A DNA stretch of 46,873 nt from Candidatus Methylacidiphilales bacterium (lineage in GTDB: Bacteria > Verrucomicrobiota > Verrucomicrobiia > Methylacidiphilales > JANWVL01): contig JANWVL010000178.1 of the NCBI GenBank assembly GCA_025056655.1, positions 1 to 46,873 of the forward strand, in the 5' to 3' direction. Of this stretch, positions 15,548-33,628 are shown piece after piece. The stretch's first letter is position 1. Every line of letters begins with the position of its first letter. The notes beneath the pieces were generated by a model. It ran no database searches and was not told the DNA's origin. It saw only the letters and a program-made list of their open reading frames with translations. Position numbers and translations under genes: made by a program.

Positions 15548-16237
15548 TTATTCTCTGCGCGTCAAAAGCGGTAAGAGATACCAGAGGAAATACACGAGCG
15601 AGGTAATAAATGCCGCTACATAAGTCAATGCAGCTGCATTTAGCACACGTTCCACACCGACCGCCTCTTCGCCCGCACGCACGAGATTCATCTTTTGCAA
15701 AATCAATTTGGCACGACGCGATGCATCATATTCCACAGGCAATGTGATTAAGTTAAACAGCATAATGATCCCCCAACAAATCGCCATAAACCATGCCATC
15801 GCAACGACATTTGTGATTAAACCCGTCCCAAATCCAATCAATGGCAGCCACAATACTGCCTGGCTGGCAAACGTAGTCACACCCACGGCCGCCATCCGCC
15901 ACTGCAAGGGCGCATATGCGATTTTGTGCTGAATCGCATGGCCACACTCATGTGCAGCTACCCCCAGTGCTGCTGGCGAGCTTCCATGATAAACTTCCGA
16001 TGATAAGACTAACCGCTTATGTATAGGATCATAATGATCCCCGAGGGGAGACGGATGCTCCACTATCTCCACATCATGTATCCCAGCTGTTTGCAAAATC
16101 CTCCGAGCCGCTTGATAACCCGTGTAGCCAGAGGATACAGGGATTTGCTGATAGCGATAAAAGGTGCTTTTTACCCGCCCCATCGCTACAAGCGAGAGCA
16201 CCATCGTCACAGCCATGATCAATATTGCTAACGTCAT
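15548..16237 (-). CDS. Membrane zinc metallopeptidase, YugP family
   Basis: 229 aa, the usual length for this family. The zinc motif HECGH is at residues 96-100 (GVAAHECGHAIQH), with a preceding LVLSSEVYHGSSPAALGVA segment typical of YugP proteins. Hydrophobic segments lie at 2-20, about 118-160 (two adjacent) and about 207-225 (YVAAFITSLVYFLWYLLPL), so it is a multi-pass inner-membrane protein with the active site near the membrane. A glutamate in the later VEYDASRRA motif is the likely third ligand. Substrates of the family are not established. A weak promoter candidate lies upstream. Confidence 0.9.
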   Translation of the reverse strand: MTLAILIMAVTMVLSLVAMGRVKSTFYRYQQIPVSSGYTGYQAARRILQTAGIHDVEIVEHPSPLGDHYDPIHKRLVLSSEVYHGSSPAALGVAAHECGHAIQHKIAYAPLQWRMAAVGVTTFASQAVLWLPLIGFGTGLITNVVAMAWFMAICWGIIMLFNLITLPVEYDASRRAKLILQKMNLVRAGEEAVGVERVLNAAALTYVAAFITSLVYFLWYLLPLLTRRE

Positions 16238-16275
16238 AAGTCTTCAGTCTTTTGTTTTTTTGTTTTAACGCCCAT

Positions 16276-16303
16276 ATTCTACCTCCATTCTCTCAACGTG
16301 CAA
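16276..16303 (-). promoter_or_regulatory. Candidate sigma-70-like promoter of the YugP-family gene
   Basis: On the minus strand TTGCAC (16303-16298) and TAGAAT (16281-16276) are separated by 16 bases, about 38 bases before the ATG. The -10 matches 5 of 6 consensus positions, the -35 only its TTG. The 112-base gap otherwise holds T-rich sequence at 16251-16266 and nothing else recognised. Confidence 0.35.
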
Positions 16304-16349
16304 GCATACAAGCCTTAAAATTTCCCTCCCCATCACTCCGTCCCATTTA

Positions 16350-17906
16350 CTAATCTGCCCCTAGCACCACAAACTCATAACGGTGGTTGCGATAAATATA
16401 CAACAATAATTTTTGCTCAGGCTTTAATTCCTCCTGAAGTTTCTTAAATTCTTGAAGCGAATACTCCCGCAGCGCTTCACCTCCTTGTATTTCCAGCGCA
16501 ATAATGATATCCCCCAATCGCAAAACCTCAGACGCCACAGTCTGGCTTACTACACTTCGCACTACAAGACCTTTCACCTCTTTCGGCACATTCCAACGGC
16601 TACGGAAATCATCCTCCAACGTGACCACCTGAACGTCAACAATCGGATTTTTCTTTCTCAAACCCTCTCTGACTTGCACCACATCCCTCACCTTAAGCGG
16701 AGCATTTTCAAGCTGATCAATCTCCACCTCCACCTGATACTCGCGCCACCTCCTCCCATCACCTTTCACGTGCTCCCCTCGCAAATAATCCAGCACAATC
16801 TTCTCCCCCGGAGCTGTCTGCCCCACATAAAAACGCAAATGTCCTGGGCCTATTATCCGCTCCCCGTTACACCGGATCACAATGTCCAACGGCCGCAATC
16901 CTACCCTATCTGCCGGCGATCCCTTTATCACATCAACAATCAACGCCCCACCGTCTCGATCAAGCTTATAAAAATCCAAAAAATCCGTCCGCAACGGCCT
17001 CAGATGACATCCCAACCTACCTCGCCTAATCGCCCGCCCCTCCCGTATCTCCTTATAAACACGGTGCGCCAAATTAATCGGCACCGAAAAACTCATCCCT
17101 TGAAAAGCTCCACTCCCAGATAAAATCGCCGTGTTTATTCCCACAATCTCCCCACGACTATTCACCAACGCCCCGCCAGAATTCCCCGGATTCAACACCA
17201 CATCGCTCTGAATAAAATCCTCATAATTATTCGTAAACTGCGGAGCCCGATTCTTACCACTCACCACTCCCCGACTCACACTACTGTTGAAATCATACGG
17301 ATTACCGAATGCCCACACCTGCTCCCCCACCTGCAACAAGTCCGAATCCCCGATCCTTGCAGCCTTAAGCCCACCCGCTTCCACCTTCAACACCGCCAGA
17401 TCCGTCAGCTCATCCAAGCCTACCACCCTAGCCTTCATCCGCCTTCCATCATACGTCCTCACGCGAATGTCCAAGGCATGCTTCACCACATGAGCATTTG
17501 TTAATATAAACCCCTCCTCGTCCATAATCACCCCTGCCCCCAATCCCTCATCTCGCGGCAAACGCAGCCCATCCTCCATCCCACTTTCAACTCTCTCCCT
17601 CTCCTCATCCCACCCATCCATAAAAAAATCATCCCCTACCGATGCCGGCTGCAACGTCGTAATATTCACCACCGAAGGCAAGACCTGCTGTATCATCACC
17701 ACCTGCTCCTGATTTAGCCTCTCAAGAAGCGAACCCTCCTTCCCATCTCCAGCATACCACCTCGGCTCACTCGGCTCGCTGACCACTCGCCCTGCACTCA
17801 CCGACAAAGCCTTCCTCTCCGCCCTCCAGTCCAAGTAAAATAGCACCCCTAGCACCAATATCCCCACTAGACTCAACTCTGCCACTCTCAAATTAACTCT
17901 CTCCAC
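16350..17906 (-). CDS. HtrA/DegP-like periplasmic serine protease with PDZ domains
   Basis: 518 aa from a GTG start preceded by AGGGGGG. A single N-terminal membrane anchor or uncleaved signal lies at about 10-27 (ELSLVGILVLGVLFYLDW). The trypsin-like domain has His139 in LTNAHVV, Asp169 in LTDLAVLKV and Ser243 in NPGNSGGALV. A PDZ domain follows at about 310-380 (GSPADRVGLRPLDIVIRCNG) and a second, more divergent one at about 440-510. The family degrades or chaperones misfolded envelope proteins and is often stress-induced. Codon use is markedly G-rich (GTG, AGG, GAG), mirroring the C-rich plus strand here. It is divergent from tyrS. Confidence 0.93.
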   Translation of the reverse strand: MERVNLRVAELSLVGILVLGVLFYLDWRAERKALSVSAGRVVSEPSEPRWYAGDGKEGSLLERLNQEQVVMIQQVLPSVVNITTLQPASVGDDFFMDGWDEERERVESGMEDGLRLPRDEGLGAGVIMDEEGFILTNAHVVKHALDIRVRTYDGRRMKARVVGLDELTDLAVLKVEAGGLKAARIGDSDLLQVGEQVWAFGNPYDFNSSVSRGVVSGKNRAPQFTNNYEDFIQSDVVLNPGNSGGALVNSRGEIVGINTAILSGSGAFQGMSFSVPINLAHRVYKEIREGRAIRRGRLGCHLRPLRTDFLDFYKLDRDGGALIVDVIKGSPADRVGLRPLDIVIRCNGERIIGPGHLRFYVGQTAPGEKIVLDYLRGEHVKGDGRRWREYQVEVEIDQLENAPLKVRDVVQVREGLRKKNPIVDVQVVTLEDDFRSRWNVPKEVKGLVVRSVVSQTVASEVLRLGDIIIALEIQGGEALREYSLQEFKKLQEELKPEQKLLLYIYRNHRYEFVVLGAD

Positions 17907-18019
17907 GCCCCCCTTACATACCCTGCTCCGCTTCTCACGTCACGACCATTTCCAACCCCCCCCACATTCCTTAAATCCCACTTTTCACTTCTCCCACTCT
18001 CCTCTACCATCCCCCCGCC
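17907..18019. other. Divergent intergenic region htrA-like / tyrS
   Basis: 113 bases, pyrimidine-rich on the plus strand with very few G. It must carry the start signals of both genes, but I see no clear -35/-10 pair and no Shine-Dalgarno sequence before the tyrS ATG (the bases before it are CCATCCCCCCGCC). No T-box-like stem or antiterminator is apparent. Confidence 0.5.
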
Positions 18020-19210
18020 ATGCACCTCTCGCCTGAAGAACAACTCGCCATCCTCACCCGCGGCACCGAGCGACTCATCTCCCCCGACCAACTCCTCCGC
18101 CAACTCCACTCCGCCACCACAAAAAAACAACCCCTCCGCGTCAAAATGGGCGTCGACCCCACCGCCCCCGACATCCACCTCGGCCACTGCGTCGGCCTCC
18201 TCAAGCTCCGCCAATTCCAAGACCTCGGCCACACCGCCGTCCTCATCATCGGCGACTTCACCGCATCCATCGGCGACCCCTCAGGCCGCAACACCACACG
18301 CCCCACCCTCTCCCGCGACACCATCCTCGCCAACGCCCACACCTACCAAGAACAAGCCTTCAAAATCCTCCGCCGCGACCAGACCGAAGTCGTCTGGAAC
18401 GGCACCTGGTTCAACAACATGACCGCCCACACCCTCCTCGAGCTCCTCAGCCGACGCTCCGTCTCACAAATCCTCCAACGCGAAGACTTCAAATCCCGCC
18501 TCGAATCCCACCACCCCCTCGCACTCCACGAAATCTGCTACCCCCTCCTCCAAGGCTGGGACTCCGTCATGGTCAAAGCCGACGTCGAAATCGGTGGCTC
18601 CGACCAACTCTTCAACCTCCTCATCGGCCGAGACCTCCAAGAACAATGCCACCAACCCCCACAAACCATCATCACCCTCCCCCTCCTCGAAGGCACCGAC
18701 GGCGTCCACAAAATGAGCAAATCCCTCGGCAACACCATCAGCGTCAACGACCCCCCAAAAGAAATGTTCGGCCGCGTCATGAGCATCCCCGACCCCCTCA
18801 CATCCCGCTGGAGCGAAATCCTCTTCGCCGAAACTCCCGACCCCAGCCTCCACCCCATGGAAGCTAAAAAACGCCTAGCCCAAAAAATCATCACCCTCTT
18901 CCATTCCGCCTCAGCAGCACAACAAGCCCGCGAAGAATTCGAGCGCATCTTCTCCCTACACCAACTCCCCACCGACATCCCCTCCCTCACCCCCCCAACA
19001 CCACTCCCCCTCACCAAACTCCTCGTCCACATCCACGCCGCCCCCAGCAACAGCGAAGCCCGCCGCCTCATCCTCGCCGGAGCCGTCTCCATCAACCAAC
19101 AAAAAATCACCGACCCCACCACCACCCCCGACTACTCCACCCCCTTCATCCTCCGCTGCGGCAAACGCTTCTTCGCCCAAATCCAACCCCCACCCCACCC
19201 CCCCAAATAA
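18020..19210 (+). CDS. tyrS: Tyrosyl-tRNA synthetase
   Basis: 396 aa, typical of the shorter class Ic TyrRS branch. The HIGH-equivalent HLGH is at 53-56 (GVDPTAPDIHLGH), VGGSDQ-type motif as IGGSDQLFN at 191-199 and KMSKS at 231-235. The C-terminus holds an S4-like RNA-binding segment (NSEARRLILAGAVSIN). It charges tRNA-Tyr in the cytosol. Odd points: the gene is extraordinarily C-rich (38 C and 1 G in 18961-19020), codons end almost always in C, the protein is enriched in Pro, Thr and His towards its end (IQPPPHPPK tail), and no Shine-Dalgarno sequence precedes the ATG. Confidence 0.96.
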   Translation: MHLSPEEQLAILTRGTERLISPDQLLRQLHSATTKKQPLRVKMGVDPTAPDIHLGHCVGLLKLRQFQDLGHTAVLIIGDFTASIGDPSGRNTTRPTLSRDTILANAHTYQEQAFKILRRDQTEVVWNGTWFNNMTAHTLLELLSRRSVSQILQREDFKSRLESHHPLALHEICYPLLQGWDSVMVKADVEIGGSDQLFNLLIGRDLQEQCHQPPQTIITLPLLEGTDGVHKMSKSLGNTISVNDPPKEMFGRVMSIPDPLTSRWSEILFAETPDPSLHPMEAKKRLAQKIITLFHSASAAQQAREEFERIFSLHQLPTDIPSLTPPTPLPLTKLLVHIHAAPSNSEARRLILAGAVSINQQKITDPTTTPDYSTPFILRCGKRFFAQIQPPPHPPK

Positions 19211-19481
19211 CCCACATCCACCAACCACTTCCATTCCCCGCCCCAAACCAACACACCCCACCCAATGCACCCCCAGTCCCCCCCACACATGCACGCCACC
19301 ATCCTCCCAAATCTTACCACACAGCCTTCTGAGTCAGACCAAACACAACCCGTTCCCCTATCACACGTTCATTAAAGAACCAACCCCAGCCCCCAAGTCA
19401 CAACTTTTCCGCCCCCCCAAATAAGCCATAAATTCACACCTCAGCATTCACACCCCACGCAAGACTTAATCCAGCCAGAGA
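19211..19481. other. C-rich intergenic region after tyrS
   Basis: 271 bases without a credible gene. 19201-19260 contains 33 C and one G, so the strand asymmetry of tyrS continues outside coding sequence. No hairpin with a T tract is visible after the tyrS stop. AGAGA directly before the next ATG at 19482 is the only weak ribosome-binding candidate. Confidence 0.6.
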
Positions 19482-20744
19482 ATGAAACAGCCATCCTTCA
19501 TGCACCCCCCTCTCACAAACCCCTCCACCATCCGACAGCTCCTCGGCCCCAATAAAAAGTGCCACCTAGCCGCCAAACCCTACCCCATCACCCCTAGACA
19601 ATTCCAAGTCCTCCAACGCCTCGGCAAAGCCCTTCACGCCTTCCAACGCGCACTCCACCTCCTCTACAAATACAGCTACCAAGGAAAAACCCTTCCCCAA
19701 ATCGCACAGCTCCTCGACGCAGGAAAACCCGCCCCCCTCATCCGCGCAGCACGACACCCAAGCCACCACAACCAACTCCCCAAACTCATCCGCCCCGACC
19801 TCCTCGTCACCGACAACAATTTCAGCCTCTGCGAAATAGACTCCATCCCCGGCGGCATCGGCCTCACCGCATGGCTCCAAGAGACCTACGCAACCACTCA
19901 CCCAAACGTCATAGGCGCACCGAATGGCATCCGTCACGCCTTCCACACCACATTCCCCTCCGCGGACGTGCTCGTCTCCCAAGAAGCTGCCGACTACTAC
20001 CCGGAATGGCACCACTTCCTAAACGGCCAAAATCTCTACTGGGCCGAAACCTACCAACCCACCGGCCGCCCCATATACCGTTTCTTCGAAACATTCGACC
20101 ACCACCTAATGCCCTGGCTCTCCCTCGACCCCCCCACCCCAATGCAGCCGCCACTCAAGCCCCAACTCGAAGAAAAACTCGCCCTCGCCCTCTTCTGGCT
20201 CAAACCACTCGAAACCTTTTGGCGCCAACAAATCGGCGAAGCCTACTTCCAACTCCTCCGTCAAATCATCCCCCGCACCTGGATCCTCACCCCAGAGCCT
20301 CTCCCCTGGCACGCCGTCATCCCCGAACTCAACGTCCACTCCTGGAGCGAAGTCGCCTCCTTCTCCCAACGCCAGCGCCGCCTCGTCCTCAAAATCTCCG
20401 GCTACAGCCCCCTAGCCTGGGGCTCTCGCGGCGTCACCTTCGGGCACGACATCCCCAGCGAAGCTTGGCGCGCTGCAATCGAGACAGCCCTCCAAAAATT
20501 CGAGACCCAACCCTACATCCTGCAGCCTTTCATCGAGGGCCGCCTGGAGACTCACGAATACTTCACAGACGATAGCCTCACCGCCACCGCCCCCCTCACA
20601 GGCCGCACCCGCCTCTGCCCATACTACTTCGTTCACAACGACCAAGTCACACTCGCCGGCATTCTCGCCACACACTGTCCCGCCAACAAAAAAGCACTTC
20701 ACGGCATGAGTGAAGCTGTTTTAATGCCGTGCGCGTTAGAATAA
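19482..20744 (+). CDS. Uncharacterised ATP-grasp-like protein
   Basis: 420 aa, function not recognised. Two regions recall circularly permuted ATP-grasp ligases: RPDLLVTDNNFSLCEIDSIP near 104-123, and VLKISGYSPLAWGSRGVTFG near 302-321 followed by SEAWRAAIETAL and QPYILQPFIEGR, where Lys would bind ATP and the Gly-rich stretch would form the grasp loop. No signal peptide or membrane segment is seen. If the fold is right, it joins a carboxylate to an amine or thiol using ATP, but no substrate can be proposed. C-rich composition like tyrS. It ends 17 bases before the mscS-like ATG, so the two may be cotranscribed. Confidence 0.65.
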   Translation: MKQPSFMHPPLTNPSTIRQLLGPNKKCHLAAKPYPITPRQFQVLQRLGKALHAFQRALHLLYKYSYQGKTLPQIAQLLDAGKPAPLIRAARHPSHHNQLPKLIRPDLLVTDNNFSLCEIDSIPGGIGLTAWLQETYATTHPNVIGAPNGIRHAFHTTFPSADVLVSQEAADYYPEWHHFLNGQNLYWAETYQPTGRPIYRFFETFDHHLMPWLSLDPPTPMQPPLKPQLEEKLALALFWLKPLETFWRQQIGEAYFQLLRQIIPRTWILTPEPLPWHAVIPELNVHSWSEVASFSQRQRRLVLKISGYSPLAWGSRGVTFGHDIPSEAWRAAIETALQKFETQPYILQPFIEGRLETHEYFTDDSLTATAPLTGRTRLCPYYFVHNDQVTLAGILATHCPANKKALHGMSEAVLMPCALE

Positions 20745-20761
20745 CTCTCCGATTCAACCCT

Positions 20762-21886
20762 ATGGAAAACGCAACTCAAAACTGGCTTAACATCCTCGAA
20801 ACGCTTCTCCGCCACATCCGCCCCGCAGAATGGTTCACCTTCGCTCTCTTTGTATTTCTCGGCCTCCTGGCATTCTGGCTGATCGATCAAAAGATCGTGC
20901 GCCTCATCCGCCGCTGGCTCATTGCCCACGATGCCCACACGATCACCACCATCATCCATCTTATCCGACTGCCGTTGGCCATCACCATTCTGGCTTACTT
21001 CACCCTGCTAGGGCTGGAGCAAATCACTTCACTCCCCGAGTCCATTCAAAGCCGACTGCAACGCATCTACCCCACGGCCAATCTCGCCATCATCATCTTC
21101 TTCCTCTATCGCGGCGTAGATATTATCGCCGTCATCCTTCGCCGCTACTGGAGCATCCAGGAAAACACTCTCAACAGCCGATGGACTGAAATCGGCACTT
21201 TCCTTGCCAAAGCCCTGATTATCGGCATTGGCGGGATGACTCTCTTGCAGATGCTTGGCATTCCCATCCTGCCCATGCTCACCGGCGCAGGTTTCCTGGG
21301 CGCCGCTCTAGCCCTCGCCTCGCAATCCACCCTGGCAAACGCCATCGGTTCGCTTGAACTCATCTTCGATCGCCCCTTCCAAGTAGGCGACCGCATCAGC
21401 TTTCTAGATTACGACGGATTCGTCACTCGCATGGGCATCCGCTCCATCGAGATTACAAGCCTCACTGGAGAACGCATCACCTTGCCGAACAAAGACGTCG
21501 TCGATAAACAAATCCGCAACTATTCAAAGACCAACGACCCCCAACTCATAGGCTGCACTCGCATCCTTCTCACAGTCGGAATCGTCTATCAACACAGTCG
21601 CACTGAGATCCAGAAGGCTTGCCAAATCCTCGAAGAAATCCTGCGCAGCCATCCCAAGGTCAAAAAAGCCTTCGCGCGGTTCCGCGCGCTGGCTCCCTCT
21701 TCCCTTGAGATTATCGGCATCGCGTGGGCTGATTACAAAAACGGCGATGAATTTTTCGCGCTCCAAAGTGAATTACAGTTAGAAATCAAAGATCGCTTCG
21801 ACAAAGCTGGCCTACAATTCGCCTACCCGACCCAGACTTTGTTCATAGAAAAGTTGCCAGGGGGGGGGATCGAACCCCCGACCTAA
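20762..21886 (+). CDS. MscS-family mechanosensitive channel
   Basis: 374 aa from the ATG at 20762; a GTG at 20729 would overlap the preceding gene. Four hydrophobic segments lie at about 22-45, 65-90, 107-125 and 155-180, then the pore and beta-domain signature GAGFLGAALALASQSTLANA and FDRPFQVGDRI. The family opens under membrane tension and releases solutes on osmotic downshock. The last residues (about LPGGGIEPPT) are encoded by bases that are the antisense strand of a tRNA-Met gene: the CDS stop at 21884-21886 lies inside it. The conserved domain ends before this tail, so the original stop was probably lost or the tRNA arrived later. Confidence 0.9.
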   Translation: MENATQNWLNILETLLRHIRPAEWFTFALFVFLGLLAFWLIDQKIVRLIRRWLIAHDAHTITTIIHLIRLPLAITILAYFTLLGLEQITSLPESIQSRLQRIYPTANLAIIIFFLYRGVDIIAVILRRYWSIQENTLNSRWTEIGTFLAKALIIGIGGMTLLQMLGIPILPMLTGAGFLGAALALASQSTLANAIGSLELIFDRPFQVGDRISFLDYDGFVTRMGIRSIEITSLTGERITLPNKDVVDKQIRNYSKTNDPQLIGCTRILLTVGIVYQHSRTEIQKACQILEEILRSHPKVKKAFARFRALAPSSLEIIGIAWADYKNGDEFFALQSELQLEIKDRFDKAGLQFAYPTQTLFIEKLPGGGIEPPT

Positions 21887-21927
21887 GGCTTATGAAACCT
21901 CCGCTCTAACCCCTGAGCTACCCTGGC
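21855..21927 (-). tRNA. tRNA-Met (anticodon CAT)
   Basis: 73 bases fold as a full cloverleaf: acceptor GCCAGGG/CCCTGGC with discriminator A, D-arm GCTC/GAGC, anticodon loop TTCATAA with CAT at 34-36, and T-arm GGGGG-TTCGATC-CCCCC. The 1-72 pair is G-C and the anticodon stem has no run of three G-C pairs, so it is not the initiator; elongator Met is preferred over lysidine-modified Ile. CCA is not encoded. It lies 54 bases after the rplQ stop on the same strand and overlaps the mscS-like CDS by 32 bases on the other strand. Confidence 0.95.
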
Positions 21928-21981: not shown

Positions 21982-22461
21982 TTATTTTTGCTCTTCCTTC
22001 TCCGTCGGAGACTCTTTCACCTCTACGACCTCTTCTTTCGAAGTCGCTTTTTTCTTTCCTTCGACAATCTGCGGTGCGTCATCGGTCTTAACGCTGTAAT
22101 TCACCCACTCAAGAATAGCCATTGGTGCGGCGTCGTTGCGCCCTGTAGAACGGCTGCCTAGACGTAAAATGCGAGTATAGCCGCCTTTGCGGTCCTGCAT
22201 AGCAGGGACAATCTCCTCAAAGAGTTTTTTGATTGCCTCTTTGTCCCCTTTCACTCTCGCAATAGCCAGCCTTCTGTGGTGCAGCGTCCCTTTTTTGCCG
22301 AGAGTGACCAGTTTCTCGGCAAACGGACGTGTCGCTTTAGCTTTGGCCAGCGTAGTGGTGATACGATTATGACGGATAAGAGCTGTAGCAAGTTGAGCGA
22401 TCGTCCTCTCACGATGCTCCTTCTTTCTACCAAGTTTACCACGTATTTTTCGATGTCTCAT
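21982..22461 (-). CDS. rplQ: 50S ribosomal protein L17
   Basis: 159 aa; begins MRHRKIRGKLGRKKEHRERT, the canonical L17 start, with RDRKGGYTRILRLGSR later (here QDRKGG). About 30 extra residues at the C-terminus are Lys/Glu-rich (KKKATSKEEVVEVKESP) and beyond the usual end at about 125. Last protein gene of the alpha operon, 19 bases after rpoA. A 6-base inverted repeat GAGCAA/TTGCTC straddles the stop codon, without a T tract, so read-through into the tRNA-Met gene is plausible. Confidence 0.97.
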   Translation of the reverse strand: MRHRKIRGKLGRKKEHRERTIAQLATALIRHNRITTTLAKAKATRPFAEKLVTLGKKGTLHHRRLAIARVKGDKEAIKKLFEEIVPAMQDRKGGYTRILRLGSRSTGRNDAAPMAILEWVNYSVKTDDAPQIVEGKKKATSKEEVVEVKESPTEKEEQK

Positions 22462-22480
22462 AAGCCCGAGAAATTTGACG

Positions 22481-23506
22481 TTACACCTTCGCAGTTTTAG
22501 ATTCCACAGTCTTATTCAAAATCTCGACAATTTCAGGATCAAATTTCATGCCGAGCGTCAACCCAAGCTCCTGCAATTTCTCTTTGATTTCGTTCAAAGA
22601 TTTCTTACCGAAGTTGCGGAACTTCAACATCTCGCTTTCAGTCTTCATAGCAAGCTGGCCAACGGTGAGAATATTTGCATTGTTCAGGCAGTTGGTCGCA
22701 CGCACGGAAAGCTCGATTTCATTGACGCTCATCGTGAGGAGTTTGATTAACTTATTATCCTCCTGCGTCGCTTCAGACTTACTCTTTTCAAATTCGACCA
22801 CATCCTCTTGGAAGTTGACGAAGATATCCAGATGCTTACGTAGGATACCTGCCGCTTGAAGCAAAGCATCCTCAGGCGTGATGCGGCCATCCGTCCAAAT
22901 ATCAAGAATTAGCTTGTCGTAGTCCGTTTTTTGCCCGACGCGACTGTTTTCAACCGTATATTTAACTTTACGGACGGGCGAGAAAAGCGAATCAATCGGA
23001 ATAATGCCGATCGGCTGATCTGGCTTTTTATTGGCCTCTGCAAGCGCAAACCCGCGCCCTACTTTGACTTCCATCTCCATGTAAAATTTCTGCTTTTTAT
23101 CTAAAGTGCAGATAATTTGATCAGGGTTGACGACCTCAACGCCGGGCTCGAGTCTAATATCCCCGGCAGTAACTGGGCCTTCTTTGTTAACGGAGAGGAC
23201 CAAATTCCGAGTCTCGCGATTAGGGAGCTTGAAAAGCACCTTCTTAAGATTCAAAATGATCTCCGTGACATCCTCGACGACATTAGGCAGAGTGCAAAAC
23301 TCATGTTGAGCCCCTTCGATTCGAATTGAGGTGATAGCCGCCCCTTCAAGTGAGGAGAGAAGGACTCGCCGGAGGGAGTTTCCAATAGTGTGACCGTAGC
23401 CGATCTCAAAAGGCTCGGCGATGTATTGAGCATAGGTGTCTGTCCTCGTCTCGGTGTTCTTAACGAGGCTTTTAGGCATTTCGAAGCTTCCTAGTCTGAT
23501 GGGCAT
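22481..23506 (-). CDS. rpoA: DNA-directed RNA polymerase subunit alpha
   Basis: 341 aa. The N-terminal dimerisation domain has EPFEIGYGHTIGNSLRRVLLSSLEGAAITS and GVQHEF-type IEGAQHEF. The C-terminal domain, which contacts UP elements and activators, has LSVRATNCLNNANILTVGQL and GKKSLNEIKEKLQELGL. Between them lies an acidic linker (VVEFEKSKSEATQEDNK). It nucleates core polymerase assembly. The 132-base gap upstream is the longest inside the ribosomal cluster and holds hairpins, so rpoA may have separate regulation from rpsD. Confidence 0.98.
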   Translation of the reverse strand: MPIRLGSFEMPKSLVKNTETRTDTYAQYIAEPFEIGYGHTIGNSLRRVLLSSLEGAAITSIRIEGAQHEFCTLPNVVEDVTEIILNLKKVLFKLPNRETRNLVLSVNKEGPVTAGDIRLEPGVEVVNPDQIICTLDKKQKFYMEMEVKVGRGFALAEANKKPDQPIGIIPIDSLFSPVRKVKYTVENSRVGQKTDYDKLILDIWTDGRITPEDALLQAAGILRKHLDIFVNFQEDVVEFEKSKSEATQEDNKLIKLLTMSVNEIELSVRATNCLNNANILTVGQLAMKTESEMLKFRNFGKKSLNEIKEKLQELGLTLGMKFDPEIVEILNKTVESKTAKV

Positions 23507-23545
23507 AAGGATTTATTTTAAGTTCTCGAGGTTGTTTGATTAAGT

Positions 23546-23597
23546 GGTAAAATGAGCTGGGTTACCCTCTCCTTGCCTAGCCTAGGCTTGAGAAGAG
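23546..23597 (-). other. Hairpins in the rpsD-rpoA intergenic region
   Basis: GCCTA (23575-23579) and TAGGC (23583-23587) form a perfect 5-base stem over a 3-base loop, with partial pairing of flanking CTCT and AGAG sequences to about 23567-23597. Next to it GGTAA (23546-23550) and TTACC (23562-23566) could form another stem. No U tract follows in the minus-strand RNA, so a Rho-independent terminator is unlikely; a protein-binding leader, processing site or attenuator is possible. Confidence 0.35.
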
Positions 23598-23638
23598 GAC
23601 CGACAGCTCGAGAGAAGAAAAACCGTAGATTACTTGCA

Positions 23639-24247
23639 TTATCGGGAGTAAAGTTCGACGACAAGCTGCTCGTTGGCCACTGGAGCAATTTCTTCGCGTG
23701 TAGGAAGCCGCTTTACTTCGCCGCGAAACTGCTCTTTATCAATCACTAGCCAGTCGGGCACAGGAGAAAGCTGCATCGCTTCGAGGCTACGCGCAGCATA
23801 TGCACGAGATTTAGGACGATCGCGGACTTCAATGACGTCTCCTGTTTTAACCTGAAAGCTGGGAATATTCACCACTCGGCCATTGACGAGGATGTGGCGG
23901 TGTAAGACGAATTGCCGCGCTGCACGTCGAGAGCTCGCTAGGCCAAGACGGAAAACAACATTGTCCAGTCGAGTTTCCAAAAGTTGAAGCAAAATATCAC
24001 CAGTGACACCGCGCTTTCTCGATGCAATCTCAAAATAGCGTCGGAATTGCCTTTCAAGAATGCCATAAGTGTAACGCAACTTTTGCTTCTCTCCGAGGGC
24101 AACGGCATAATCTGATTGCTTCTTGCGGCCTTTGATACCGTGAACGCCCGGAGGATAGTTGCGACGTTCAAGTGCTTTATGAGGGCCAAACAAAGCAGCG
24201 CCGAAACGGCGGCTTTTCTTGGTGCGAGGTCCTGTATAACGAGCCAT
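23639..24247 (-). CDS. rpsD: 30S ribosomal protein S4 (zinc-free type)
   Basis: 202 aa. MARYTGPRTKKSRRFGAALF lacks the cysteines of zinc-binding S4. PPGVHG and GEKQKLRYTYGILERQFRRYF follow, then the S4 RNA-binding domain (RLDNVVFRLGLASSRRAARQFV, HILVNGRVVNIPS). S4 is a primary 16S rRNA binder and, in E. coli, the translational repressor of this operon. It lies 28 bases after rpsK. Confidence 0.98.
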   Translation of the reverse strand: MARYTGPRTKKSRRFGAALFGPHKALERRNYPPGVHGIKGRKKQSDYAVALGEKQKLRYTYGILERQFRRYFEIASRKRGVTGDILLQLLETRLDNVVFRLGLASSRRAARQFVLHRHILVNGRVVNIPSFQVKTGDVIEVRDRPKSRAYAARSLEAMQLSPVPDWLVIDKEQFRGEVKRLPTREEIAPVANEQLVVELYSR

Positions 24248-24275
24248 AGGTTAATTTGTGTATAACGTTCGTTAA

Positions 24276-24848
24276 TTACACGCGACGTGGTTTCCGTGGA
24301 CGGCATCCATTGTGGGGGATGGGCGTCGTGTCGACGATAGAGGTAATTTCAATGCCAACTGATTGAATGGCACGGATCGCCGATTCACGGCCTGACCCCG
24401 GGCCTTTGACGCGCACTTGCACTTCACGCAGTCCATGAGCCATTGCACGCTTGCAAGCATCTTGCGCGACAACTTGAGCCACATAAGCCGTGGACTTTTT
24501 CGACCCACGAAATCCACATTTGCCTGCGCTCGACCAGGCTATCACATTACCATTAAGATCTGTAAGCGTGACAATCGTGTTGTTGAATGTGGCGAGTATA
24601 TGAGCAATCCCTGTAGTGACGTTTTTAGCTCCTTTTACCTTTGCAATTTTGATTTTTTCAGGCGTCTCACCTAGCAAATCTGCTGCTGTAAGCGGGCTAA
24701 CTTCTTCAACCACAGGCGGCGTAGCTTCAACTTTGGCATCTGCTTTCTTGGCCGCCTTACTGGACTTCGATGATTTGCTGGACTTGGTTGTTTTGGATGG
24801 CTTATTCGATGTCTCAGGTGTTGAGGGAGATGGAGTCTCTTCAGACAT
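24276..24848 (-). CDS. rpsK: 30S ribosomal protein S11 with N-terminal extension
   Basis: 190 aa against about 129 usual. The S11 core starts near residue 70 ([20 protein letters not shown]) and ends with the conserved [12 protein letters not shown]. The first 65 residues are low-complexity Ser/Lys/Pro with [17 protein letters not shown], probably disordered. The ATG at 24848 is only 21 bases from the rpsM stop and no Met lies between the extension and the core, so the extension appears genuine. S11 lines the mRNA exit platform of the 30S subunit. Confidence 0.97.
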
Positions 24849-24869
24849 AGGCTTGAAGGGGAATTAGTA

Positions 24870-25265
24870 TTAGACTTTGCCTCTCTTGGCATCTTTGTTG
24901 CGCTGCACACCGACCGTCTTGCGAGGACCTTTGCGAGTGCGAGCGTTGGTCGAGGTGCGTTGACCGCGAACAGGAAGACCGCGACGATGGCGGATGCCGC
25001 GGTAGCAGCCGATTGCTTGGAGGCGTTTGAGGTTTTGTTGGATTTCACGCCGTAGATCGCCTTCAATTACGTATTTATTCTCTTGGACAACTCTAATGAT
25101 TCGGTTGATTTGTGAGTCCGTGAGGTCTTTGGCGCGAATGTCGGGGTTGATCTCTGCTTGTTCGCAAATGATCCGGGCACGAGCGCGACCGATGCCGTAT
25201 ATGTAGGGCAAAGAGGCAACTATTTTTTTGTCACCAGGAATTTCTACTCCAAATATTCTTGGCAT
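24870..25265 (-). CDS. rpsM: 30S ribosomal protein S13
   Basis: 131 aa. [30 protein letters not shown] is the helix-two-turn-helix start, and the [27 protein letters not shown] tail reaches the P site. S13 contacts P-site tRNA and the 50S bridge. It follows rpmJ by 17 bases and opens the alpha-type group rpsM-rpsK-rpsD-rpoA-rplQ. Confidence 0.98.
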
Positions 25266-25282
25266 AAAATATAAGGTCGAGG

Positions 25283-25399
25283 TTACCCTTGCCTCTTTTT
25301 GAGGCGAGGGTTCTTTTTATTAATAACGTAGATTCGCCCTTTGCGTCGGACGATTTGACAATCAGCTGTCTTTCTTTTGACGGATGCGCGGACTTTCAT
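25283..25399 (-). CDS. rpmJ: 50S ribosomal protein L36 (zinc-ligand-poor type)
   Basis: 38 aa read directly from the minus strand: ATG at 25397-25399, TAA at 25283-25285. It begins [14 protein letters not shown] and ends NPRLKKRQG, the standard L36 frame. The zinc ribbon ligands C-x2-C-x12-C-x4-H are reduced to a single Cys (TADC), so zinc cannot be held as in the usual form. It lies 23 bases from infA and 17 from rpsM, the classical infA-rpmJ-rpsM order. Confidence 0.96.
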
Positions 25400-25422
25400 G
25401 GTATTGTGGTTTGAAATTGAGA

Positions 25423-25641
25423 TTACTTTCTACTGATGACACGACCTCGGGTCAAATCATAGGGTGAAAGTTCTACCAAAACTTTATCGCCGGGCAAGAC
25501 TTTTATAAAATTTAACCGCATTTCCCCTGCAGCATGGCAGAGAATGCGATGACCGTTCGAAAGGCTTACGCGTAGAAGGTTGTGATTCATGACTTCAACG
25601 ACGGTGCCTTCGATTTGGATATTTTCTGAGTTGGCAGACAT
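25423..25641 (-). CDS. infA: Translation initiation factor IF-1
   Basis: 72 aa, the usual length. The OB-fold reads [20 protein letters not shown], then [41 protein letters not shown]-1 occupies the 30S A site during initiation. The start at 25641 is forced because the fold begins within ten residues; the gene therefore overlaps the 3' end of map by 55 bases in another frame. Confidence 0.97.
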
Positions 25642-26384
25642 GTGAGGATCTCCGCTTCTTTTTCGGTGATGACAATGGTGTGTTCAAAATGAGCTGATGG
25701 AAGTCCATCTCGAGTGACAGCTGTCCATCCATCAGCGAGGATGCGAACATCTGGCGTGCCTAAGTTTACCATCGGCTCGATGGCCAGTGTCATTCCAGGC
25801 TTGAGTATAGGACCTGTGTGAGGTTGACCAAAATTTGGCACTTGAGGCTCTTCATGAATGTGACGACCGACGCCATGCCCGACAAATTCTCTTACGACGG
25901 AGAAGCGGTGTTTTTTGATATAAGATTCAATGCTATGAGATATATCTCCCACCCGAGCCCCTGCGCGCGCCGCAGCAATGCCGTGATAGAGAGCTTCTTC
26001 AGTCGCTGTGATGAGTCGCGCGATGTCGGCGGAAATTTCTCCGATGGGAATGGTCGCCGCGGTGTCTCCTATCCACCCGTTATGCAGGATGCCGACATCT
26101 ATTTTTACAATGTCGCCATATTGGATGCGGCGCGAGCTGCCGATACCGTGGACGACTTCTTCATTGATGCCTATGCAGATGTGGCCGGGAAACTTTCGAT
26201 AACCGTAGAACGCGCTTTTAACGCCGTATTCGCGCATAAGGTCAGCAGCAGCCTGATCAATCTCACGCGTAGTGACTCCTGGAGCGAGAAGATTTTTGAG
26301 TTGCTCAAGGATGGTCGCTGCCAGGGCTCCGCTTTCTCGCATGGCTTGGATTTCTGGTTCGCGCTTTATTGGAATTTGTGCCAT
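25587..26384 (-). CDS. map: Methionine aminopeptidase, type I
   Basis: 265 aa. N-terminal IPIKREPEIQAMRESGALAA, then GYRKFPGHICIGINEEVVHGI with the His near 80, metal-ligand Asp residues in DIVKIDVGILHNGWIGDTAAT, HGVGRHIHEEP and the Glu motifs GMTLAIEPM and FEHTIVITEKEAEIL. It removes the initiator Met from nascent proteins. The usual C-terminus falls at about EILT; the extra 17 residues ([17 protein letters not shown]) are read through the first 55 bases of infA. adk, often beside it, is absent. Confidence 0.97.
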   Translation of the reverse strand: MAQIPIKREPEIQAMRESGALAATILEQLKNLLAPGVTTREIDQAAADLMREYGVKSAFYGYRKFPGHICIGINEEVVHGIGSSRRIQYGDIVKIDVGILHNGWIGDTAATIPIGEISADIARLITATEEALYHGIAAARAGARVGDISHSIESYIKKHRFSVVREFVGHGVGRHIHEEPQVPNFGQPHTGPILKPGMTLAIEPMVNLGTPDVRILADGWTAVTRDGLPSAHFEHTIVITEKEAEILTCLPTQKISKSKAPSLKS

Positions 26385-26407
26385 GTGGGGGATGAAAGGA
26401 TGTGTGT

Positions 26408-27898
26408 TTACTTGCTAGAAAGCGCGATGGTGATGCCAGCTATGACGAGGATACCAATCAGCGCGTAAATCCACACCAGTGTAGTATCGTCGACAGTCCG
26501 GCTTTGTGTAGTGGCTTGAAACGCAGAACGCCCGCGGATACGCCCCTTTTTGAGGAAACCGTCATAATGACGTTGGAGAAGGTAGGTTTCCATTTGCCTC
26601 ATGACGTCTAGCACTACTCCCACCACAATCAGGAGACTTGTGCCTCCGAAGAATTGAGCCGTGACGTTGGGGATTTTAAGATTATGATGGATGATTAATG
26701 GCAAGATGGCAATGAAGGCAAGAAAAACAGCGCCAGCAAAGGTTAGCCGCGTCATAGCATGATCAAGGAACATAGCAGTGCCTTCTCCTGGACGCACACC
26801 CGGGATAGCTCCATTGTTCTTCTTAAGATCTTCTGCGATCTGAACAGGATTAAAGACCATCGCTACCCAGAAATAGGAGAAGAAAAAGATCATTAGCCCA
26901 TAGAGGACGTAATACATCCAGCCGTGGGTGAGGTTATTGATGAATTGCTGAATGCCGATGGGCATGTTTGGAATGATGCTTAGAACTGTGCTCGGAAAGA
27001 GAATGATAGATTGTGCAAAAATCACTGGCATCACACCTGCATAATTCAGCTTCAGAGGAAGATAGGAAGACTGGCCTCCGAAAATTTTGTTTCCGCGTAT
27101 TTGTTTAGCATATTGGACTGTAACCTTCCGTATTGCTTGTGTGATAGCGACGGTGGCAGCAATGACGGCAAAAAGAAAACCGAGTAGTGCGACAACTAAA
27201 AGGGGGCTCGTCACAACACTTCCTGCCGTGATTTTATTCCAAGCTTGGATCAGCGCTGCAGGAAGCTGAGCAAGGATACCTACGGTAATGATAATTGAGA
27301 TGCCGTTTCCTATTCCCTTATCAGTGATTTGTTCTCCCAGCCACATGAGGAGCATGGTGCCAGTCGTTAAGCTAAGAATTGTAGTAAACCGAAAAAGCGG
27401 GCCAGAATCAGAAACCAAGGGTGTCCCTTCTCTCAGGATGATCTCTTGAATCCCTTTGAGAAGTGGAATGCTTTCGGGCTTTTCAAAACCAATGGCCAAA
27501 AGGTAGCCTTGGAAAACGCAAAAAACAAGCGTCAAGAGGCGCGAATACTGAGTGATTTTCTGACGCCCCCCTTCTTCTCTCGAAAGTTTGCCGAGACTAG
27601 GCACGATTGCCGTGAGAAGTTGCATCATGATGCTTGCAGTGATGTAGGGCATTACACTGAGAGAAAAAATAGCGCAGTTTTCAAGCGCTCCCCCGCTGAA
27701 AAGATTGAAAAGACCAATGACTGAGCCTTGAGCTTGTTGATCAACAACACTCTCAAAGAACATTCCCAATATCGTGGAGTTAACACCGGGCACCGGTATC
27801 GCAGCCCCGACCCGTGCGATAACTATCACCGCAAGAGTAAAGAGGATGCGTTGGCGAAGCTCTGGAATCTTGAAGCAATTTGAAAAAGCCGAAAACAT
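26408..27898 (-). CDS. secY: Protein translocase subunit SecY with extra C-terminal helix
   Basis: 496 aa against about 440 usual. Ten membrane helices are visible, with plug-region motif FNLFSGGALENCAIFSLSVMPYI, SLGKLSREEGGRQKI, and the ribosome-binding loop RGNKIFGGQSSYLPLKLNYAGVMPVIFA, ending in the usual cytosolic HYDGFLKKGRIRGR (to residue 457). Beyond it lies a 39-residue tail with an 11th hydrophobic helix, about 474-493 (LVWIYALIGILVIAGITIAL). SecY is the pore of the Sec channel. The tail would put the C-terminus in the periplasm. It lies 16 bases after rplO and 23 before map. Confidence 0.97.
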   Translation of the reverse strand: MFSAFSNCFKIPELRQRILFTLAVIVIARVGAAIPVPGVNSTILGMFFESVVDQQAQGSVIGLFNLFSGGALENCAIFSLSVMPYITASIMMQLLTAIVPSLGKLSREEGGRQKITQYSRLLTLVFCVFQGYLLAIGFEKPESIPLLKGIQEIILREGTPLVSDSGPLFRFTTILSLTTGTMLLMWLGEQITDKGIGNGISIIITVGILAQLPAALIQAWNKITAGSVVTSPLLVVALLGFLFAVIAATVAITQAIRKVTVQYAKQIRGNKIFGGQSSYLPLKLNYAGVMPVIFAQSIILFPSTVLSIIPNMPIGIQQFINNLTHGWMYYVLYGLMIFFFSYFWVAMVFNPVQIAEDLKKNNGAIPGVRPGEGTAMFLDHAMTRLTFAGAVFLAFIAILPLIIHHNLKIPNVTAQFFGGTSLLIVVGVVLDVMRQMETYLLQRHYDGFLKKGRIRGRSAFQATTQSRTVDDTTLVWIYALIGILVIAGITIALSSK

Positions 27899-27914
27899 GG
27901 ATATTCAGGAGAAG

Positions 27915-28364
27915 TTATTTCGAAATAATTTCGACCGTTCCTCCCACGGCTTCTATCTTAGCTCGCGCCGCTGCACTGACAGCATGAACTTTGAATTGAA
28001 GCGGTTGCTTTATTTCTCCTTGAGCTAGAATTTTGACGCCATCCCAACGGCCATTCACAAGTCCATGTTGACGGAGAACCGCTTCATCTATTATCCCCGT
28101 AAGTCCGCGTTCCTCTATCGCTTTTAAGTTAACGGGCGCGTATCGAGTAGCAAACCGTGCATTGTTAAACCCTCTCTTAGGAATGCGGCGTATGAGGGGC
28201 ATCTGCCCCCCTTCAAATCCCAATCGTATGCTCCCACCCGATCGAGCCTTTTGGCCTTTATGTCCTTTTCCGCTAGTCTTGCCGTGACCAGAGCTTTCGC
28301 CACATCCGAGTCGTTTTTTGCGGTGTCGAGCACCAGGTTTGTTGCTGAGTTGTGGAAGTTTCAT
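27915..28364 (-). CDS. rplO: 50S ribosomal protein L15
   Basis: 149 aa from the ATG at 28364 (MKLPQLSNKPGAR); a GTG two codons upstream is possible. KKRLGCGESSGHGKTSGKGHKGQKARSG is the L15 glycine-rich tail, which threads into 23S rRNA. It lies 23 bases after rpsE; rpmD (L30), which normally lies between them, is missing. Confidence 0.97.
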   Translation of the reverse strand: MKLPQLSNKPGARHRKKRLGCGESSGHGKTSGKGHKGQKARSGGSIRLGFEGGQMPLIRRIPKRGFNNARFATRYAPVNLKAIEERGLTGIIDEAVLRQHGLVNGRWDGVKILAQGEIKQPLQFKVHAVSAAARAKIEAVGGTVEIISK

Positions 28365-28387
28365 AGACACGAATCCGAGATTATGGT

Positions 28388-29107
28388 TTATGGAGTAGAT
28401 TGAGATGACGAATCGTTCGTGTGGTTATCAGACGATATCGATGAAGAGGCTTTCCACTTTTTTCCCCTAAGGGTGTAGATCTCCTCCGGAGATCTCAACC
28501 TGCAGAGCGCATGAAGAGTGGCGTGGACAACATTAAACGGGTTAGCTGACCCAAGCGATTTAGCTAACACATCTCGCACTCCTGCAGCTTCACAGACTGC
28601 TCTGACTCCTGCTCCAGCGATAATACCCGTCCCAGGAGATGCAGGACGAAGCAGAACGTAACCTCCATCAAAGTGTGCCTCTACGGCGTGAGGAATAGTG
28701 CCATCCTTGAGCACAATATCATAGAGCCTTTTGGTCGCATTCTCAGTCGCCTTGCGAACGGCGTCAGCAACCTCATTGGCTTTACCAAAGCCCACCCCGA
28801 CTTTACCTTTGCGATCACCGACTACGACTAGAGCGCTAAATCCGAAGCGCCGACCGCCCTTGACAACTTTCGTGGTGCGATTGATGTGAACAACTTTATC
28901 TATTAACTCCGATGTGGGAGCCCGGTTAGAACGATCGGTGGTTCGAGAATTTCGCGTGCGATTGTTGCGCGAATTGTTTTTCCGATTCTTAGAGAGAGAA
29001 TCAGATGTCTCGGCATTCGGCTCTGAGATTAAAGCCGCATTTTCAATGCCTTCATTAAGTGTTTCTGTATTTACAGTGGATTCGATGTCTTGAGTAGGGT
29101 TAGGCAT
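28388..29107 (-). CDS. rpsE: 30S ribosomal protein S5 with N- and C-terminal extensions
   Basis: 239 aa against about 165 usual. The S5 core starts near residue 66 ([31 protein letters not shown]) and has [17 protein letters not shown] and [15 protein letters not shown]. The first 65 residues are Asn/Arg/Ser-rich ([16 protein letters not shown]), the last 20 Ser/Asp/Asn-rich. S5 shapes the mRNA entry channel and decoding accuracy. Both tails are in frame with no internal stop and probably disordered. Confidence 0.97.
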
Positions 29108-29119
29108 ATGAATTAACTT

Positions 29120-29479
29120 TTAAAATTCTAATCCAGCCTCACGTGCCGCATCGGCGAGCGCTTTAACTTTTCCATGGTAGATAAATCCGCCTCGGTCAAA
29201 AACGACTTGATGGATGTTTTTTTCTTTTGCTCGCTGAGCAATAAGGGTGCCAATGACCCTTGCGCTATTGACGTTGGCAGATAATTTTTTTGCGCGTAGT
29301 TCCTTTTCAGTAGTAGCCGCACTCGCTAAGGTCACGCCGGCTTCATCATTGATGATCTGAGTGTAGATGTGCTTGCCAGAAAAAGCCACACTAAGGCGTG
29401 GGCGCTTTGCGGTGCCACTGATTTTTTTTCGAATTCTTTTGTGGATGCGTTTGCGAACAATGCGACGGGATATGCGCAT
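29120..29479 (-). CDS. rplR: 50S ribosomal protein L18
   Basis: 119 aa. [32 protein letters not shown] and the terminal [26 protein letters not shown] are characteristic. L18 binds 5S rRNA. It lies 12 bases from rpsE and 15 from rplF. Confidence 0.97.
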
Positions 29480-29494
29480 ATGATATGAACGAGG

Positions 29495-30037
29495 TTATTT
29501 GCTTTGAGCTGTTTTCCCTTGTTTGCGACGGATATATTCACCGACGTAGCGTATGCCCTTCCCTTTATAGGGTTCTGGAGGATAAAATCTCCTGATGTCA
29601 GCAGCAACAGCTCCCACTTTCTGCTTATCTATGCCTTCGACACTGATGTTCACGCTATCCGTGACGGTTATCTTTATCCCTTCCGGAATCTCATAGTTGA
29701 TTGGGTGGGAAAAACCAAGATTGAGGACCAGTGTCTTGCCTTGAACCGCTGACTTAAATCCCACTCCTTCGATTTGAAGATCTTTTTTGAAACCCTGTCG
29801 CACACCAATAATATGATTAGCAATTATAGCTCGAGCGAGCCCATGCCAAGCTTTGTGCTGACGGGTTTCTCCTTTATTTTCTAGGTAAGCACGTGATCCA
29901 TCGAGTTTAAGGGTAATTTGAGGAGGCAATGTGTAACTGAGTTTACCTTTCGGTCCTTCGATATTCACAAGGTTATCTATGACGTTCAGTTTTACGTCAC
30001 TCGGGATCTCTATCGGTTTCTTGCCTATTCGAGACAT
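29495..30037 (-). CDS. rplF: 50S ribosomal protein L6
   Basis: 180 aa, normal. MSRIGKKPIEIPSDVKL start and the second-domain FYPPEPYKGKGIRYVGEYIRRKQGKTAQSK end with the universal EPYKGKGI motif. L6 sits near the factor-binding site. It lies 13 bases after rpsH. Confidence 0.98.
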   Translation of the reverse strand: MSRIGKKPIEIPSDVKLNVIDNLVNIEGPKGKLSYTLPPQITLKLDGSRAYLENKGETRQHKAWHGLARAIIANHIIGVRQGFKKDLQIEGVGFKSAVQGKTLVLNLGFSHPINYEIPEGIKITVTDSVNISVEGIDKQKVGAVAADIRRFYPPEPYKGKGIRYVGEYIRRKQGKTAQSK

Positions 30038-30050
30038 AGATTACAATCAA

Positions 30051-30443
30051 TTAATGGACGGTGAGTAGTAATTCTCCTCCTAACCCTAATTTTTTAGCTT
30101 TATGGCCAGTTATGATGCCTTTAGGAGTTGATAATACTGCAATACCCATACCACCTAGAACTCGAGGTATTTCCTTGCAGGAGACGTAACGTCGAAGGCC
30201 AGGCTTACTTTCACGTTGAATGTCCGTGAGCGCGTATCTCTTACCTTCCACTCGAAGACGGACTTTGAGAAGCGGCTTTTTGCCGTTGGGTATGATCTCA
30301 ACATCACTCAGGTAACCCTCTTCTTTTAAGACTCGGGCAATTTGCCCTTTTACGCGGGAATGGGGAACTGTAACTTCAACTAGATGTGCTCGCACCGCGT
30401 TACGGAGGCAAGTAATGAAGTCAGATATGGGATCGGTTTGCAT
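30051..30443 (-). CDS. rpsH: 30S ribosomal protein S8
   Basis: 130 aa from the ATG at 30443 (MQTDPISDFITCLRNAVRAH), the canonical start; an upstream in-frame extension would run into rpsN. RVLGGMGIAVLSTPKGIITGHKAKKLGLGGELL matches the C-terminal rRNA-binding domain. S8 binds 16S helix 21 and represses the spc operon in E. coli. It lies 14 bases after rpsN. Confidence 0.97.
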   Translation of the reverse strand: MQTDPISDFITCLRNAVRAHLVEVTVPHSRVKGQIARVLKEEGYLSDVEIIPNGKKPLLKVRLRVEGKRYALTDIQRESKPGLRRYVSCKEIPRVLGGMGIAVLSTPKGIITGHKAKKLGLGGELLLTVH

Positions 30444-30457
30444 AGCCTTATCTGGTT

Positions 30458-30643
30458 CTACCAACTTGCTTTCATTACGCCTGGTATTTCCCCCCACTGG
30501 GCGAGCTCCCTAAATTGTATACGGCTGACCCCAAATTTACGGATATAGGCCCTACGACGGCCAGAAATTTTGCAGCGGTTATAAGCGCGCGTCCTAAACT
30601 TGGGTGTGCGTTTTTGTTTAGCGATCCAGGATTTCTTAGCCAT
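30458..30643 (-). CDS. rpsN: 30S ribosomal protein S14, short form without zinc site
   Basis: 61 aa from the ATG at 30643 ([12 protein letters not shown]); the longer open frame upstream has no S14 character. The length and [11 protein letters not shown] core match the short zinc-binding S14, yet only the first zinc Cys (NRCKI) survives: the partner is Ser and the second pair reads SRIQ in place of CRIC. So it is a short C-minus S14. It ends [18 protein letters not shown] as usual. It lies 19 bases after rplE. Confidence 0.96.
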
Positions 30644-30662
30644 AAGAACGTAGGTGTTTGGT

Positions 30663-31238
30663 TTATTTAGCAGTAGTTTGTAGATTTCTATTTCGATCGG
30701 AAAAAGGCATGCCGAAGAGCTGTAATAACTCCTTAGCCCGCTCGTCATTCCTTGCCGTAGTTACGAATGTGATGTCCATCCCTATATTTCTTTTAACTTT
30801 ATCGAGCTCAATTTCTGGAAATATCGTATGATCTTTGATACCCAGGGTATAATTTCCGTGACCGTCAAATGCTCGTGCAGAGACCCCTCGAAAATCACGA
30901 ATACGAGGAAGCGCCATTACAATGAGCCGCTCCATAAACTCATACATCATCCGCCCGCGTAAAGTCACTTTTAGGCCAATCGGTTGATTTTTCTTGAGCT
31001 TAAAGTTGGATATGGCTTTCTTCGCTTTTGTTTGCACAGGTTTTTGACCAGTTATCGCAGCTATATCTTTTTCAGCGTCTTCAAGAGCTGTCTTTTCTTC
31101 CGTCGAGCCGATGCAACAATTTACAACAATCTTCTCGATCTTAGGTATTTCGTTAATGTTGGAATAACGCCCAGACTCCATTAAGCTTGGAACGATTTTT
31201 TCTCGATAAAGGCGATCAAAATTTGCCCTAGCGTTCAT
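30663..31238 (-). CDS. rplE: 50S ribosomal protein L5
   Basis: 191 aa. [39 protein letters not shown] and [20 protein letters not shown] are L5 motifs. L5 binds 5S rRNA and contacts P-site tRNA. It lies 11 bases after rplX. Confidence 0.98.
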
Positions 31239-31249
31239 AACTCAACCAG

Positions 31250-31558
31250 TTATTTAGATTTGGCTGCTCTTTTTCTTTGAAATCGCTCTTCGTATTTTTT
31301 AACATCCATGACCTTTGAGGCGTGGATTGGCGCTTCTCGTTGCACAAAACCGCCCTTAGGATTTTTTGGGTTGGGCTTAACTGCCTTCGTGACAATATTT
31401 ACTCCTTCGACGATCACACGGTTCTTCTTAGTAAGCACCTCCAGCACTTTGCCTTTCTTATTTTTGTGAACACCGGATATAACAATCACCTCTTGACCTT
31501 TCTTGACGTGAACACGGTGCCGCCTGGGAGCTAGCTGCGCTTTTCTCATACGATTCAT
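31250..31558 (-). CDS. rplX: 50S ribosomal protein L24
   Basis: 102 aa from the ATG at 31558; another ATG at 31549 (MRKAQ) is equally possible. The KOW motif [25 protein letters not shown] is followed by [13 protein letters not shown] and [11 protein letters not shown]24 starts 50S assembly. It lies 7 bases after rplN; AGAGG in the rplN end is a distant ribosome-binding candidate. Confidence 0.96.
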
Positions 31559-31565
31559 AGAGCTA

Positions 31566-32254: not shown

Positions 32255-32322
32255 AACCAAACTTTACTTCGTTCGAGGGGGAGAAAGTGTAGATGATACT
32301 GCCAAGTTTTGCATCACTTTTT

Positions 32323-32520: not shown

Positions 32521-32538
32521 ATGTCTTGTAAAGTTGGG

Positions 32539-32964: not shown

Positions 32965-32968
32965 AACG

Positions 32969-33613: not shown

Positions 33614-33628
33614 AGTTTATTCAGCTAC

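Follow-up and report, generated by a model that had tools for sequence, protein, structure and literature searches.

Ordinary replication skew typically amounts to about 2.5% in GC skew, with the sign set by the leading or lagging strand, according to SkewDB (PMC8941118). The nearest published case of a stronger disparity is Microgenomates bacterium Ch65, where one strand holds 29.83% C and 14.97% G; gene distribution gives no explanation, one sign runs over the whole closed chromosome with no trend in AT skew, and the authors give no cause (PMC7143001). The literature searched, which did not extend to subscription papers and preprints, gave no account of skew domains of a few kb that alternate along a bacterial chromosome. 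APOBEC/UNG/REV1-type mutagenesis leaves C->G and C->T changes on an exposed strand, clustered into strand-coordinated tracts.

The genome studied here (Candidatus Methylacidiphilales bacterium, GCA_025056655.1, referred to as G000) comprises 2,435,586 bases in 178 contigs, and the window is the whole of its contig C178, 46,873 nucleotides. G000 is similar to Ch65 in the strong excess of C over G on one strand that does not result from gene distribution; in contrast to the one sign described for Ch65, the sign in G000 changes back and forth every 5-20 kb and the AT skew follows the GC skew (compared with PMC7143001). A single genome-wide sign of the Ch65 type was thus not found in G000. In both coding and non-coding DNA one strand has more G than C and more T than A, as in ordinary replication skew, whereas the skew of about 0.99 at silent sites and the polarity changing many times per contig differ from it (compared with PMC8941118). 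The features of the window, named according to Pfam and NCBIfam, are the following.

15548-16237, minus strand: zinc metallopeptidase, left flank; fourfold sites C 0.39, G 0.18.
16250-21900, no strand: skew island with C-rich, G-poor plus strand; domed profile with its peak at 19.15-19.45 kb.
16350-17906, minus strand: HtrA/DegP-type serine protease (Trypsin_2 and PDZ) with G-rich coding strand; plus-strand fourfold sites C 0.57, G 0.05 (n=231).
17907-18019, no strand: intergenic gap between the divergent HtrA and tyrS genes; skew -0.82; transcription flips, the sign is unchanged.
18020-19210, plus strand: tyrS (tyrosine-tRNA ligase); fourfold sites A 0.10, C 0.88, G 0.00, T 0.02 (n=218).
19211-19481, no strand: intergenic gap 3' of tyrS; skew -0.70 (126 C, 22 G).
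19482-20744, plus strand: ORF of 420 aa in the island core, without Pfam or NCBIfam match; fourfold sites C 0.72, G 0.05.
20729-21886, plus strand: MscS-type channel, fading right flank; fourfold sites C 0.53, G 0.18.
21855-21927, minus strand: tRNA-Met, right edge of the island.
21982-41333, minus strand: low-skew block with rpoA, secY and EF-G (the ribosomal-protein genes between these were named by the initial annotation); fourfold skew of the sampled genes about zero, mildly negative at EF-G.
41334-46873, no strand: second island of the same sign, ending at the contig end; U32 peptidase, cytidylyltransferase and two GT9 genes; skew -0.30 to -0.43.

The strong asymmetry reported at 16250-20744 by the initial annotation was confirmed, with 1-kb GC skews of -0.375 to about -0.60 (16,001-20,500), and its base counts were exact on recount: 38 C and 1 G at 18961-19020, 33 C and 1 G at 19201-19260. 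Overall, the skew was -0.4 to -0.7 across 16.3-20.7 kb on both gene strands, strongest in tyrS and in non-coding DNA, with the most extreme 300-base window (-0.73) at 19,151-19,450; in 1-kb windows it decayed to about -0.1 by 22.5 kb and by 15 kb. The maximal 1-kb |skew| of the window was 0.620; in 300 shuffles of 30-base blocks the maximum averaged 0.302 and never exceeded 0.370. The plus-strand C excess was common to the minus-strand HtrA gene, the plus-strand tyrS and both gaps, in agreement with the earlier suggestion that the bias tracks the DNA strand and not the gene, and the fourfold sites of the HtrA gene bear out its G-rich coding strand. The flanking MscS-type and metallopeptidase genes were indeed milder, and the weaker bias in the same direction noted at 41511-46873 was recovered as the second island.

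The island of the window belongs to a mosaic that spans the genome and includes both skew signs. Equally strong skews were determined in other contigs of G000, with the sign alternating at intervals of 5-20 kb and with values of up to about ±0.99 at degenerate sites. Of 40 contigs sampled, 14 under 3 kb were left out and 26 (532 kb) were analysed; |skew| exceeded 0.4 in 97 of 519 one-kb windows, spread over 13 contigs. The gene-level work left out 12 of the 26 contigs, short or low in GC, which were counted in the 1-kb window tally; the codon-position, intergenic and strongest-window fourfold statistics come from 7 contigs and the later gene-level analyses from 14. The ORF caller was a simple one, with length and G-at-position-1 filters, and not a trained gene finder. 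The 175-kb contig C110 swung from +0.65 to -0.52 in 1-kb windows and from +0.99 to -0.88 at degenerate sites. The initial annotation had held that an equal chromosome-wide skew on this replichore would make the island ordinary; the neighbouring domains of G000 have the opposite sign.

The skew of the flanking DNA was followed by codon position 3 with r = 0.89 (257 genes) and by intergenic DNA with r = 0.90 (62 regions), so codon choice is insufficient as an explanation, as had been proposed; positions 1 and 2 followed it less (r = 0.58 and 0.64). Neighbouring genes on opposite strands agreed in skew (r = 0.73 at 0-1.5 kb, 63 pairs), the correlation length being about 4 kb, and the AT skew followed the GC skew. 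In the strongest windows, fourfold sites were 0.81 C vs 0.02 G, alike for plus and minus genes. Coding density was about 90%. The strong islands hold ordinary core genes (DNA polymerase III delta', phosphotransacetylase, FtsJ-type methyltransferase), and core genes such as rpoA and secY are found also in the unskewed zones. The mutational, position-bound nature of the mosaic is well supported.

The contigs C5, C20, C65, C75, C115, C120, C160 and C177 had a GC content of 0.31-0.39 vs 0.44-0.58 elsewhere and nearly no strong skew (one window above 0.4, in C160); they may be contaminants or have been imported recently. At one contig end (C95, bases 1-74), 74 consecutive C are perhaps an assembly artefact.

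The relatives used for comparison were 60 genomes of the same order, none of them from the family of G000. The standard deviation of the orientation-corrected fourfold skew was 0.11-0.26 in eight order relatives and 0.54 in G000. The mosaic was absent in the sampled order relatives, in which 6 of 548 windows exceeded 0.4, all six in one genome (G022). At the tyrS loci of varied bacteria (80 gathered, two under 6 kb left out), the skew exceeded 0.45 in 1 of 78 (L113, from G060), compared with 18 of 24 pieces of G000; the best named match of the tyrS itself was a Verrucomicrobiaceae bacterium MAG, with 52%, which would put G000 within Verrucomicrobiota or close to it. In G022, a member of the same order, the fourfold skew of contig C4 (L065-L067) stayed uniform, at about -0.6 to -0.8, along 49 kb. 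In G060 (Verrucomicrobiaceae bacterium CE-Jul18-43; L113, L200-L219), 61 of 386 windows exceeded 0.4, and the domains extended over tens of kb with short unskewed gaps of lower GC, which are perhaps imported DNA. G022 and G060 share the fourfold signature of the G-rich strand with G000 (G 0.74 and 0.82), but their uniform and broad domains are without the 5-20 kb mosaic.

Screening 288 phylum genomes for 60-base runs without G proved to be a poor way of detecting mosaics. None of 318 windows exceeded 0.4 in the 18 genomes with usable stretches (of 20 with high run counts). No mosaic was detected in G184, G172, G246 and G286, which scored above G000, or in G118, slightly below it (0 of 202 windows above 0.4); these five are AT-rich, low in GC or unskewed, and the high score of G286 probably came from tandem repeats. 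Other genomes, among them G221, G340 and G219, also scored above G000. The periodic-G pattern was rejected as a detector since it cannot separate skew from high GC3. G-free minisatellite-like runs of CCACCTT-type units occurred in several genomes of the phylum, e.g. G200, G219 and G113. In G141 (contig C1, L246), the skew moved mildly and smoothly between +0.23 and -0.33, with a fourfold standard deviation of 0.45, and this genome is a candidate second mosaic genome.

A transcription-coupled asymmetry, caused by R-loops, an exposed non-template strand or long antisense transcripts, has several observations in its favour: the skew correlated with gene direction (-0.37, with the peak at zero lag), the coding strand was mostly C-rich in 21 of 27 strong islands (77% of coding bases), and a match for RNase HI was absent in G000. 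However, RNase HI was absent in 11 of 14 genomes while RNase HII was present in all 14, and a C-rich coding strand is the opposite of that expected from R-loops on sense transcripts. The divergent HtrA and tyrS genes have a common sign, the rpoA/secY block is unskewed, the intergenic skew shifted only modestly with gene arrangement (pooled -0.12 between plus genes and +0.23 between minus genes), and order relatives with a comparable gene-direction offset lack the mosaic. With a correlation of that size and with opposite-strand neighbours in agreement, the sign is not set by gene direction, and we consider this explanation unlikely; transcription or the tolerance of G-rich messages may modulate the skew.

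Altogether, 24 strong sign switches were found in 14 contigs (462 kb). Coding and non-coding DNA are affected strand-wise as in a replichore skew, but such a skew has one sign per replichore and two switch points per chromosome; as both signs alternate in G000, the mosaic is not a replichore skew. A ramp, having one parameter more than a step, was better by >2 log units in 19 of the 24 switches and the converse was seen in none; the ramp widths were mostly 1-6 kb, and the best step position fell inside genes for 20 switches. The full-length gene of pyruvate carboxylase (biotin carboxylase, carboxylase and biotinyl domains) switched from -0.61 to +0.29. Within-gene switches were determined in 9 of 24 long genes of G000 vs 5 of 18 in order relatives, with the largest likelihood gains of 62 and 15, respectively. 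The GC content of fourfold sites climbed from 0.46 to 0.74 with |skew| and dipped from 0.65 to 0.51 at the switches (mean over 16 chosen from the 24), which is expected if a single process fades out; a mixture of two polarities would be expected to keep the GC high. The ramps, the in-gene switches and the GC dip argue against inversions, chimeric assembly and many origins. Twenty-four skew peaks were symmetric along the strand (half-widths of 3.0 and 3.75 kb; p 0.39) and hence gave no sign of a resection tract running in one direction.

The skew changed more steeply at tRNA genes than at positions chosen at random (12 tRNAs, including the tRNA-Met at 21855-21927; p about 0.01 to 0.05 by window size), an association sought post hoc, after the data had been seen.

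Strong skew in broad domains is known in the related lineages G022 (49 kb) and G060 (with unskewed gaps), and a replichore skew as strong as that of G022 could have been fragmented by numerous inversions and by imported DNA without skew. The abrupt between-gene borders expected of inverted or imported segments were not found; ramps prevailed, most of the best steps fell in genes, and an intact pyruvate carboxylase gene changed its sign. In addition, the unskewed zones are low in GC, where a block that had flipped and was still in transit would be expected to be rich in it, and rpoA and secY, located in unskewed zones, are hardly imports. This explanation is largely refuted and, in our estimation, quite improbable. 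Selection on DNA or RNA, through codon choice, motifs or G-quadruplexes, would be in accordance with the G4-type motifs, at 0.95 per kb in strong islands vs 0.004 per kb in neutral DNA. However, this enrichment follows from composition, no k-mer stood out much beyond the Markov expectation, and the bias spans intergenic DNA and both gene strands; selection is a very unlikely cause.

Many replication initiation sites, each with minus skew to the left and plus to the right, would suit some narrow minus-to-plus switches, e.g. that near 8.35 kb in C105. Nevertheless, upward and downward switches were equally wide, their increments were unskewed (0.01 to 0.075), and a sawtooth of sharp rise and gradual fall, sought among the switches of G000, was not found; overlapping opposite forks should also hold the GC high where it dips. 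There is little chance that this is the origin of the mosaic. An artefact of assembly or binning, conceivable for a genome of 178 contigs with 3.1% estimated contamination, is scarcely credible with the pattern lying within contigs and with ramps, intact conserved genes and a coding density of about 90%.

In domains of 5-20 kb, substitution is pushed to G on one strand (C on the other) and falls to almost nothing at the borders, and the polarity of each domain is fixed by where it lies, irrespective of gene direction, replichore or gene order. C is the first base to drop on the G-rich strand, followed by A and then T, while G reaches 0.7 or more. When a single intensity drives C->G, A->G, C->T and minor T->G, the model comes near the saturated likelihood (86755-86760 against 86666), and the transitions-only model failed by about 3,240 log units, so C->G is required under the equilibrium that the model assumes, with substitutions left unpolarised.

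The best explanation overall, to which we give a probability of roughly 0.35, is a mutation process that is tied to position, selects one of the strands and acts where that strand is exposed as single-stranded DNA, with C being placed across from lost bases; its molecular cause is weakly inferred. The G-rich strand would be repeatedly single-stranded over a few kb in each domain, e.g. during recurrent repair of gaps or breaks at fixed sites. On the exposed strand, C and A would be lost or deaminated, and bypass inserting C opposite the damaged or abasic site would result in C->G, A->G and some C->T; long-term action could saturate silent and non-coding sites. A spectrum that needs C->G would be expected if C and A are lost or deaminated on the exposed strand and C goes opposite the gap. 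The C->G and C->T changes on one strand resemble APOBEC/UNG/REV1-type mutagenesis; unlike in the latter, A->G is also strong in G000. Orthologs of REV1, a deoxycytidyl transferase, are not known from bacteria, and E. coli frequently follows the A-rule. The repair genes looked for in G000 were ordinary: one Y-family polymerase, MutS, two DnaE, one UDG and an AddB-type nuclease. No match for a Y-family polymerase was obtained in G022, which has the same base signature, and this speaks against a Y-family polymerase as the C-inserter. The preference of strong islands for C-rich coding strands, a residual link to transcription, and the symmetry of the skew peaks also count against the exposed-strand explanation.

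More speculatively, strands may separate more readily once one of them has become G-rich, which would lock the polarity of the domain. The chromosome would then be split into few-kb domains of lasting polarity by a self-reinforcing process, in which the G-richer strand is more exposed and is driven further to G; we regard this as a possible but rather doubtful reading. If true, strand asymmetry would be a spontaneously chosen, inherited local state and no record of replication or transcription.

The direction of replication is routinely read from GC skew, which also serves for origin finding and assembly checks. Silent sites swinging from almost all C to almost all G within a few kb indicate that another, location-bound source of asymmetry can dominate. 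The mosaic is not accounted for by ordinary replication, by transcription or by the rearrangement of genes, and it points to a position-bound mutation process undescribed in the literature searched. The mosaic gives a C->G-rich mutation spectrum and would be a natural record of where one bacterial DNA strand is habitually exposed.
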